Assembly (NCBI GenBank): GCA_009268125.1
Contig: WBOU01000001.1
Coordinates: forward strand, 434,001 to 498,000
DNA: 64,000 nt
Reading direction: 5' to 3'
Source of the DNA: Chloroflexia bacterium SDU3-3
GTDB taxonomy: Bacteria; Chloroflexota; Chloroflexia; Chloroflexales; Roseiflexaceae
Shown here: one piece after another, positions 9,307 to 22,311 of the stretch
How positions within the stretch are numbered: the stretch's first letter is position 1
Layout: each line of letters opens with the position of its first letter
Notes under the pieces: model-generated
What the model was told of the DNA's origin: nothing
The model's input: the letters and a program-made list of their open reading frames with translations, nothing else
Database searches by the model: none
Made by a program: the position numbers and the translations under genes

Positions 9307-9334
9307 TTGACAGCCAAATAACACGTGTTATAAT
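9307..9334 (+). promoter_or_regulatory. Consensus promoter with internal LacI-type operator
   Basis: Perfect -35 TTGACA (9307-9312) and perfect -10 TATAAT (9329-9334) with a 16-nt spacer. Overlapping the spacer and the -10 is a 14-bp perfect palindrome, ATAACACGTGTTAT (9318-9331), whose centre ACGT has the CpG-centred symmetry common in LacI-family operators. Binding there would block RNA polymerase, so autoregulation of the LacI gene at 9353 is likely. The remaining gap, 9046-9306, is AT-rich and shows nothing else convincing. Confidence 0.75.
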
Positions 9335-9352
9335 CTACGCGGAGGCCAAACT

Positions 9353-10387
9353 ATGAGAAAGCGCCGCGCTACCAGCCAGGATGTCGCCAAGCGTGCTGGG
9401 GTTTCTCGCAGCACCGTCTCAGCCATCCTAAATCACACGCCAGGTATCGGCTACAGCGAAGAGACGCGCAAATCGGTTCTGCAAGCCATCCAAGAGCTCA
9501 ACTACAAAGTCAACGTCCAAGCCAAGAGCATGCGTACTGGCCTAAGTCGCTGCATCGCAGTCTACGGCAATGTCACCAACCCGCTGTTCTTACAGTCGCT
9601 TGATGGCATTCAAGAGGTCTGCAGCAACAACGACTACCACCTGCTGCTCTACGGGGCCAAACGAGACCCGGCCTATCGGTTTTCCATGATCGATGTCTTT
9701 CTACAGCACCGCATCGATGGGATCATCTCGGTCGACTACACCACCTTCCAAGATTTCTCGTGGTTTAAGACGATCAGCACCGAAGAGGTGCCCTATGTCT
9801 CGATCGAGGGCTACCCAACCAACAGCGATGTCTCATCAGTGCTGATGGACTATGCGCACAGCGTCACGATCGCGCTGGAGTATATGTCGCAGCGCAGCCC
9901 GGTGCTGCCGCTCTACCTTGAGCTCTACGACACCGCCGACGGACACTCGTACGAAAACTGGGCCGAGACCAACCGGCGCAACGCCTACTGCCGCTGGATG
10001 AAGAGCCACGGCAGCGAGCCGCGCGTGCTGTCCATCGAAGATCAGCCATGGGCCGCTGGCTCGCACTTCTGGATCTCGTGGCTCTCGCAGCAGCAGCTGC
10101 CCATGACCGTGCTCTCCAACTGGTCGCGCGGGGCAGCCTATCTCTACCGCGCCGCCTACAGCCTGGGGCTGCGCATCGGGCGCGACCTGCAGGTGATGGC
10201 CTGCGACAACACCGAGCGGATCAACGCGCACATGATCCCCACGCTTAGCGCGGTCGAGGTGCCCTACAAAGACATGGGTATCCTCGCCACCAAACGGCTG
10301 ATCGAGTACATCAGCCATCGTCGGCCCACCACCGACACATCGAGCCAGTGGCTCTCGGCCCGGCTCGTACCAGGCGAAAGTATCTAG
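9353..10387 (+). CDS. LacI-family transcriptional regulator
   Basis: 344 residues, ATG preceded by GGAGG. Residues 7-26 form the LacI helix-turn-helix (TSQDVAKRAGVSRSTVSAIL) with the usual hinge helix (about 46-60). The rest is a periplasmic-binding-protein-like ligand domain (IAVYGNVTNPLFLQSLDGIQ at about 69). It should bind an operator as a dimer and release it on binding a sugar or sugar derivative. The neighbours are a deacetylase-like gene, a sugar ABC importer, a GH9 glucanase and a GH38 mannosidase, so it is most likely the local repressor of this polysaccharide locus. The operator in its own promoter supports autoregulation. Confidence 0.88.
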   Translation: MRKRRATSQDVAKRAGVSRSTVSAILNHTPGIGYSEETRKSVLQAIQELNYKVNVQAKSMRTGLSRCIAVYGNVTNPLFLQSLDGIQEVCSNNDYHLLLYGAKRDPAYRFSMIDVFLQHRIDGIISVDYTTFQDFSWFKTISTEEVPYVSIEGYPTNSDVSSVLMDYAHSVTIALEYMSQRSPVLPLYLELYDTADGHSYENWAETNRRNAYCRWMKSHGSEPRVLSIEDQPWAAGSHFWISWLSQQQLPMTVLSNWSRGAAYLYRAAYSLGLRIGRDLQVMACDNTERINAHMIPTLSAVEVPYKDMGILATKRLIEYISHRRPTTDTSSQWLSARLVPGESI

Positions 10388-10457
10388 ATCTCCCCTTCAG
10401 GCCGCAGACCCCGCCGCCTTGCAGCCCTGACACCCCCGCATGCTGTTGCTCTAGCCC

Positions 10458-22000: not shown

Positions 22001-22273
22001 GGCCTCCCCTCGCTCATCGAGCTGGACCAGCCCAACCTGGTGGTCGAGACCGTCAAGCTGGCCGAGGACGGGCGCGGGATCATTGTGCGGCTCTACGAGA
22101 GCCAGCGGCGGCGCGGCACGGCCACGCTGCGGGCCAGCTTCGCCGTCGCGGCGGCGTGGAAGACCAACCTGCTGGAAGAAGAGCAGCAGCGGCTGGATGT
22201 GGCGGGCAGCGTGGTGCAGTTTAGCGTGCGCCCTTATGAGATCATCACGATTCGGCTGGAGCGCGCATCCTAA
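19097..22273 (+). CDS. GH38 alpha-mannosidase
   Basis: 1,058 residues from the GTG at 19097, which has AGGAGA about 6 nt upstream; an upstream in-frame GTG at 18992 has no site. Residues 60-245 are the N-terminal beta-sandwich of bacterial family 38 enzymes. The catalytic domain starts with ATGHAHIDVAWLWTLGQTRR, giving zinc ligands His257 and Asp259, and has the nucleophile Asp371 in VVWLPDVFGYAWALPQ. A later segment, LNQFHDIIPGSSIHEVY, supplies the remaining zinc His. Long C-terminal beta domains follow. No signal peptide is present, so it probably trims alpha-mannosides in the cytoplasm after import. Combined with GH9, the locus may target a mannose-containing plant or fungal polymer. A terminator follows. 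Confidence 0.92.
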   Translation: MSHIVRWTTQKITQRLALIEPLVYRRRTELTPFRYTALESPTELPPTAPNFDDSAWDVVAPNSYWGTWNTNFVLRGSFHIPADWDTSAPVALFLPLGEAGDFSHPEALAYIDGAPYAACDRHHQEFRLRDEWRGGQSHHLALHGWVGLGGGGWRARQEPTQLFLRPCAVVQIDQPTRDFIALARVTLGVASTIADSVPAKSHLMNGLDDAFRVLDTGEPFGDAFYASIPAAHAALKAQIERAGLPLDVDIVATGHAHIDVAWLWTLGQTRRKASRTYHTVMRLMEQFPDYHFTQSQPQLYQFIQQDHPELFEQIKQRVAEGRWEPTGDMWLEADCNLSGAESLARQFLLGRSFFRQQFGQDASSPVVWLPDVFGYAWALPQLIKQAGLDYFFTIKIGWSQYNRLPYDSFWWQGLDGTRVLTHFSPTPEKGSAYASTYNAMATAEDVIGTWTNYRQKDLSGSGPLPPLLMAFGFGDGGGGPTREMLENLRELRSFPATPRVRQGAVGDFFRALEESAGERLPTWNGELYLEYHRGTYTTQSRNKRANRTSEFLLHDAELLATIAAQLDQSYAYPSQELTQAWQLVCLNQFHDIIPGSSIHEVYVDSQQQYAQIRQIGEAVRDAALAQIAAHVGGDLLVVNPTSFRRAGLALWKSQLGAGQQICSAEGDLVPSQPTAEGTLLYGEWDGLSIQGLTVADASAPRHDSGLRVSQSRLENPDLLVELNADGDITRIYDKQAQREVLPKGALANQFQAFEDRPMRWDAWDIDIFYTDTMWTADPATAITVVESGPLRATLRIQRTIRHSTYTQDISLGHSGRLLTISTTIDWRERHTMLKVAFPVDILSPQATYEIQWGNVQRPTHRNTSWDWARFETCAQKWVDLSEGDYGVSLLNDCKYGHDIHENVMRISLLRSPTEPDPEADQGEHRFSYSLLPHDGGWGEETIGSAYALNDPLIVYARPQAAARPAAAAGLPSLIELDQPNLVVETVKLAEDGRGIIVRLYESQRRRGTATLRASFAVAAAWKTNLLEEEQQRLDVAGSVVQFSVRPYEIITIRLERAS

Positions 22274-22283
22274 CATGGCTGGC

Positions 22284-22311
22284 GAGGCGGCCCTCCGCTG
22301 GGGGCCGCCTC
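22284..22311 (+). terminator. Intrinsic terminator after the alpha-mannosidase gene
   Basis: Perfect 10-bp stem GAGGCGGCCC (22284-22293) with 22302-22311 and an 8-nt loop, followed by ATTTTC, 11 nt after the stop. Confidence 0.8.

Follow-up and report, generated by a model that had tools for sequence, protein, structure and literature searches.

Xanthan has a beta-1,4-glucan backbone with Man-beta-1,4-GlcA-beta-1,2-Man-alpha-1,3 side chains (Man, mannose; GlcA, glucuronic acid), in which the inner mannose is often acetylated (PMC12827396). In Microbacterium XT11 and Paenarthrobacter ilicis its degradation is divided between a glycoside hydrolase of family 9 (GH9) for the backbone and one of family 38 (GH38) for the inner alpha-mannose (PMC12772297, PMC10881899), and in P. 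ilicis GH9, GH38, ATP-binding cassette (ABC) importer and LacI proteins were found by proteomics to be more abundant on xanthan (PMC12772297). Here we describe an island of seven genes at positions 9307-22311, + strand, of a 64-kb window (the whole stretch of DNA that was analysed) from Chloroflexia bacterium SDU3-3, whose genome of 6.76 Mb is rated 100% complete. The genes code for a LacI regulator, a protein without a recognised family (referred to as UNK), a lipoprotein substrate-binding protein (SBP), two permeases, a secreted GH9 and a cytoplasmic GH38. Because published xanthan loci split backbone and inner mannose between GH9 and GH38, the pairing of the two enzymes in one island is, by analogy, expected rather than odd, and what looked like an odd pairing becomes a testable substrate prediction, namely xanthan. 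We consider the island to be, with a probability of roughly 0.7, a locus for the use of xanthan or a similar polymer that was acquired horizontally or is a mosaic.

The evidence that carries this reading comes mainly from the GH9. Against PDB entry 6FHJ it scores 955 bits over residues 43-936, whereas the second-best PDB sequence reaches 69 bits, and its identity to 6FHJ/6FHN is 50% over about 900 residues; 6FHN is PspXan9, an endo-processive xanthan-specific beta-1,4-glucanase (PMC10881899). The catalytic domain is present (PF00759, E 5e-45), and the catalytic Asp pair (DAGD; D194 and D197) as well as the acid Glu558 are conserved with 6FHJ. On comparison with 48 relatives (PspXan9 and 47 proteins recovered by a scan of genomes), the window GH9 was found to keep 178 of 184 near-invariant columns overall and 127 of 132 in the catalytic part. 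The likeness to PspXan9 extends over the whole domain order, from the Ig-like domain to the beta-sandwich modules, although the alignment ends about 95 residues short of the 6FHJ chain end and a tail of 45 residues takes the place of these in the window protein. A preliminary description of the island had given this enzyme Ig-like and CBM-like (carbohydrate-binding module) parts. The former is borne out by an N-terminal CelD_N domain, which scores just below the Pfam cut-off; the C-terminal modules match those of PspXan9 and are not generic CBMs. As judged from its sequence, the window GH9 is a member of the endo-xanthanase (PspXan9) group and not a plain glucanase.

A scan of a genome collection with the window GH9 alone as query gave no match, and the same scan with an alignment of this GH9 and 6FHJ gave 50 loci (Paenibacillus, Cohnella, Microbacterium, Herbiconiux and others). 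These relatives belong to Paenibacillaceae, Actinomycetota and one Verrucomicrobia metagenome-assembled genome (MAG), and the characterised xanthanases PspXan9, CspXan9, Pt_XanGH9 and MiXen come from taxa holding these GH9 loci. A search of 400 genomes from the phylum Chloroflexota yielded no second GH9 of the PspXan9 type. Conservation of the gene order within the phylum, proposed earlier as a check, thus finds no support; partial conservation was found in Paenibacillaceae and Actinomycetota instead. A tblastn search of plasmids gave no match for GH9 or UNK. The GH9 is likely of horizontal origin, and the island suggests xanthan-type catabolism in a phylum without a second case among the 400 genomes.

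Among the described systems, the island resembles the regions of P. ilicis 6C and Microbacterium sp. XT11, which likewise hold a GH9 endo-xanthanase, GH38, an SBP and permeases, with no ABC ATPase named in the cluster and no GH88; LacI-type regulators also occur in the P. ilicis region. Unlike the island, however, these clusters hold a polysaccharide lyase of family 8 (PL8) and a GH3, whereas the window genome is without PL8 and the island without GH3, and the actinobacterial xanthanase genomes searched are without UNK. Loci of Paenibacillaceae (P. taichungensis I5 in the literature; L010, L014, L052 and others in this study) share the GH9 xanthanase, and about 19 of them share UNK, mostly beside an SBP and permeases. 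They differ in having a histidine kinase and response regulator in place of LacI, a different SBP and permeases, PL8 in their genomes and a GH9 that is mostly longer (1200-1400 residues). Many of the Paenibacillaceae xanthanases (L005-L016 and others) have extra modules, and part of the GH9 query matches them twice. Thermogutta terrifontis (PMC5673643) resembles the window genome in having no PL8 and in the proposed role of GH38 on the inner mannose, but there DUF1080 proteins and not GH9 cut the backbone, and beta-mannosidases are proposed for the terminal mannose. We read the island as a known kind of xanthan-type locus in an unexpected host; what is new is the missing lyase and an uncharacterised, conserved protein.

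The seven genes in one direction, at the place given by the preliminary description, were recovered by open reading frame (ORF) and profile searches. The features are as follows.

9307-9334, +: promoter TTGACA-16-TATAAT with perfect -35 and -10 boxes (12 of 12 matches)
9318-9331: perfect 14-bp palindrome ATAACACGTGTTAT over the -10 box, a putative LacI operator
9353-10387, +: LacI-family regulator (Pfam PF00356, PF13377)
about 10542-11978, +: UNK, predicted to be cytoplasmic, with a NodB-type barrel and a C-terminal beta-sandwich (homologues, models, fold searches); the ORF opens with TTG at 10464 and has ATG codons at 10536 and 10542 inside it as possible starts
11992-13353, +: lipoprotein SBP of a carbohydrate ABC importer (PF01547, PF13416; start and lipobox); the true start lies within an ORF opening at 11584
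13392-13423, +: intrinsic terminator or attenuator in the gap between SBP and permeases (perfect inverted repeat of 13 bp with a T-run behind it)
13621-14571, +: ABC permease of MalF/UgpA type (PF00528; UgpA-like in NCBIfam)
14555-15427, +: ABC permease of MalG/UgpE type (PF00528; GlcU/UgpE-like in NCBIfam)
within 15428-15503 (core about 15440-15492), +: terminator 3' of the permeases, a hairpin with T-run (37-nt arms, 84% complementary)
15595-15618: near-perfect 24-bp palindrome CTCTGTTACTATATAGTAACGGAG 5' of GH9, a possible second operator
15953-18898, +: secreted GH9 of endo-xanthanase type with signal peptide, Ig-like domain, GH9 domain (PF00759) and PspXan9-type beta-sandwich modules
18928-18954, +: terminator 3' of GH9, a strong hairpin
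19097-22273, +: cytoplasmic GH38 alpha-mannosidase of Ams1 type (four GH38 Pfam domains; Ams1 in PDB, E 2e-160); the ORF runs from 18992, with a probable GTG start at 19097 behind AGGAG
22284-22311, +: strong terminator at the end of the island

The limits of the island coincide with the perfect sigma-70 promoter (9307-9334) and the last terminator (22284-22311). Since three further strong hairpin terminators lie inside it (after the SBP, after the permeases and after GH9), the island probably forms several transcription units and not one operon. The palindrome ATAACACGTGTTAT, likely the LacI operator, is the single mismatch-free site in the genome, and within the island it is present at the first unit only. 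Sites with two mismatches are not enriched in the genome (7, vs 13 for a reversed-pattern control). Because the sole mismatch-free palindrome sits at its promoter and terminators follow within the island, autoregulation of the first unit by LacI is plausible. The earlier proposal of one regulon is thus suggested for the first unit only: with one perfect site, two-mismatch sites no more frequent than in the control and internal terminators, a single LacI regulon across all seven genes is not supported. The palindrome CTCTGTTACTATATAGTAACGGAG, which lies in a 0.5-kb region 5' of GH9, is unlike the LacI palindrome and may be an operator of another regulator.

As had been noted before, no ABC ATPase is encoded between the limits of the island. 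A truly ATPase-less importer was nevertheless rejected in view of an orphan gene elsewhere in the genome. Amongst four ATPases with a TOBE_2 domain, one (contig 5, near base 13,000) lies above the curated UgpC cut-off (NF008653, 473.7 bits vs 432); a LacI gene adjoins it upstream, and no recognisable permease or SBP ORF is found beside it. There are well-described examples of importers that share an ATPase of MsmX/UgpC type (PMC7658222, PMC5730181). The present arrangement is like these multitask systems in combining an importer without its own ATPase and an orphan UgpC-type gene elsewhere, and differs from them in that the pairing with the island importer is a predicted one.

UNK has no match to a Pfam or NCBIfam family, in keeping with its first portrayal as a deacetylase-like protein of uncertain family. 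Among its 14 aligned relatives no Pfam family rises above chance level, the polysaccharide deacetylase profile matches none of the 15 members, and a search of PDB sequences with the family profile gave nothing significant. Relatives with 44-52% identity are found in about 19 xanthanase loci of Paenibacillus and Cohnella, and in about 17 of these UNK and the SBP are immediate neighbours with the same orientation. Of the 30 genomes in the genus of P. whitsoniae, 11 have a GH9 xanthanase; UNK occurs in 7 of these 11 and in none of the 19 others (hypergeometric p about 1.6e-4, uncorrected for relatedness). With no apparent signal peptide, the protein appears to be cytoplasmic, and its gene accompanies that of the SBP; xanthan oligosaccharides taken up by the importer are therefore its most likely substrate, and the earlier suggestion that it could act on the imported material probably holds.

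Two AlphaFold2 models of UNK (pLDDT 72 and 78, pTM 0.77 and 0.83) show a NodB-type barrel followed by a C-terminal beta-sandwich, with a low-confidence segment at residues around 139-196. The best structural match across both parts is 3lm3 (Z 25.0, root-mean-square deviation 4.0, 346 residues), which is annotated only as a putative glycoside hydrolase/deacetylase and for which no literature was found. The barrel by itself matches polysaccharide deacetylases and PuuE with Z about 19-20 across 242-246 residues, and GH57 enzymes with lower scores (Z about 16-17). A classical metal-dependent deacetylase of carbohydrate esterase family 4 (CE4) would suit the barrel and the top Foldseek matches, most of which are polysaccharide deacetylases and PuuE, and deacetylation is listed as an intracellular activity of xanthan degradation in Bacillus sp. 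GL1 (PMC10881899). We nevertheless consider such an enzyme distinctly unlikely, as there is no CE4 profile match, the H-x-D of motif 1 is lost in several members (GYVKND in L029, TLVDKS in L036), the histidines of motif 2 are missing from the alignment, and the best full-length match, 3lm3, carries no firmer annotation; the D-H-H motif positions were placed on UNK by strand order and without superposition. Thus UNK shares the NodB-type fold with CE4 deacetylases, PuuE and 3lm3, but differs from the CE4 enzymes and PuuE in lacking a profile match and a conserved metal triad, on which grounds a CE4 assignment by sequence was rejected, and in having the extra beta-sandwich, which is common to UNK and 3lm3.

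Invariant residues of UNK include E141, D146, D161, E179, D184, D200, D203, E242, H244, E245 and E247 (numbering from 10542). Several of them fall in the low-confidence part of the model, and because of this no catalytic site can be assigned. Candidate functions are an inner-mannose deacetylase and a side-chain glycosidase, which we rate about equally. UNK offers a specific candidate for a step, on the side chain or in deacetylation, for which published xanthan loci have no gene. Tentatively, and at somewhat less than an even chance, it may found a new carbohydrate-active enzyme family, in which a barrel and beta-sandwich with invariant acidic residues replacing the CE4 metal site would carry out the side-chain step lacking an assigned gene, in a GH9-based pathway without PL8.

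Taking these components together, we infer the substrate, every catalytic step and the regulation as follows. The secreted GH9 would attack the beta-1,4-glucan chain of xanthan, or of an exopolysaccharide resembling it, and release short oligosaccharides with branches. These would be imported through the lipoprotein SBP and the two permeases, energised by the orphan UgpC/MsmX-type ATPase. In the cytoplasm UNK would modify or trim the side chain, either by O-deacetylation of the inner mannose or by a glycosidic cut. GH38, in which the N-terminal catalytic, the middle and the two C-terminal domains all score above the Pfam cut-off, would then take off the alpha-1,3-mannose. The remaining cellobiose would be finished by chromosomal beta-glucosidases; GH3 has eight matches in the genome and none in the locus, and these are not linked to xanthan (GH94 was not searched). 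LacI would repress at least its own unit. Such a locus would be a candidate natural GH9 xanthanase system without PL8.

Several observations weigh against this assignment. A PL8 xanthan lyase was not found in the genome with profiles PF08124 and PF02278, although the PF02278 search was positive in 11 of the 12 other xanthanase genomes searched, all but the Verrucomicrobia MAG, and PspXan9-type enzymes strongly favour lyase-treated xanthan. The locus has no GH88, and the two GH88/GH105 genes of the genome both lie in other clusters, the first in a pectin-type cluster with GH28, KduI and UxaE and the second in a uronate-type cluster on contig 23 with LacI, KduI and SBP genes. Between the island and the Paenibacillaceae loci, neither the importer proteins (SBP and permeases) nor LacI are closely related, and for this reason the island looks mosaic. 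Moreover, in the tree the window GH9 stands on a branch that is long and deep and not nested among characterised xanthanases, its pairing with L021 being flagged by the tree program as a possible long-branch artefact; because of this position, a different heteropolysaccharide with a cellulose backbone is possible as substrate. An acetan-like polymer with GlcA-Man(alpha-1,3) branches, or a xanthan naturally without terminal mannose, would need no xanthan lyase, and the deep GH9 branch and the lack of PL8 in a complete genome, vs its presence in 11 of the 12 comparison genomes, both favour it. We still regard it as unlikely, since the catalytic columns of the xanthanase group are almost fully conserved in the GH9 and there is no positive evidence for any other glycan.

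GH88 is reported absent from Microbacterium XT11 and P. ilicis too. Some GH9 xanthanases yield pentasaccharides from native xanthan (PMC12827396), and for T. terrifontis, a precedent without PL8, a lyase-free route with DUF1080 proteins and beta-mannosidases has been proposed (PMC5673643). A similar route is compatible with the xanthan-locus explanation and would refine it: the work of PL8 would fall to beta-glucuronidase and beta-mannosidase activities, or else to an unrecognised lyase together with the contig 23 GH88 cluster, and the final steps to GH38 and GH3. The contig 23 cluster, with its LacI, GH88, KduI and SBP genes and a protein weakly like heparinase II/III, adds to its appeal, but this cluster has its own SBP and regulator, and the island, to which the check for these families was confined, holds no beta-mannosidase or beta-glucuronidase. 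We put the route at clearly below even odds, about one chance in three. The substrate of mixed glucose and mannose content in the preliminary description is probably right, but not its source in a mannose-decorated plant or fungal polymer, as the affiliation of the GH9 speaks for xanthan, which is an exopolysaccharide of bacteria, or for a closely similar polymer. An island for beta-glucan, glucomannan or fungal mannan, with GH9 and GH38 on separate linkages, would agree with the linkages on which the two families generally act. It is very improbable given the gap between 955 bits to the xanthanase and at most 69 bits to other GH9 structures and the lack of a beta-mannanase in the locus. GH38 does not cleave the beta-mannosidic bonds of glucomannan, and a glucomannan or mannan substrate was rejected on the xanthanase affiliation of the GH9.

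The uronate-type island on contig 23 (L077:7144-17997, L080:104-1942) comprises genes for LacI, a divergent GH88-like protein, KduI, a short-chain dehydrogenase-like ORF, an SBP and permease-like ORFs. It also codes for the 613-residue protein weakly like heparinase II/III, which lies below the Pfam cut-off; the island is possibly an unrecognised lyase system. In actinobacterial loci the glucuronate step has no assigned gene (PMC12772297). An FAD-dependent oxidoreductase (PF12831) recurs near the xanthanase loci (L007:705-2276, L029:3215-4786, L019:4197-5822), directly after the SBP or UNK in L007 and L029, and the genes listed for the P. ilicis region likewise include an FAD-dependent oxidoreductase (PMC12772297). 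It might be part of an oxidative side-chain step.

Directly beyond the island terminator lies a TnpB gene of IS200/IS605 type (RNA-guided nuclease family; 22599-23747, - strand), with a hairpin CCCACGGGTAACCCCGTGGG at about 22570-22590 near its 3' end and no TnpA seen adjoining. Further along the same contig 1, 9-11 kb past the window end, a 671-residue protein (L079:8944-10956) contains the eCIS core domain PF13699, which marks proteins connected with extracellular contractile injection systems.

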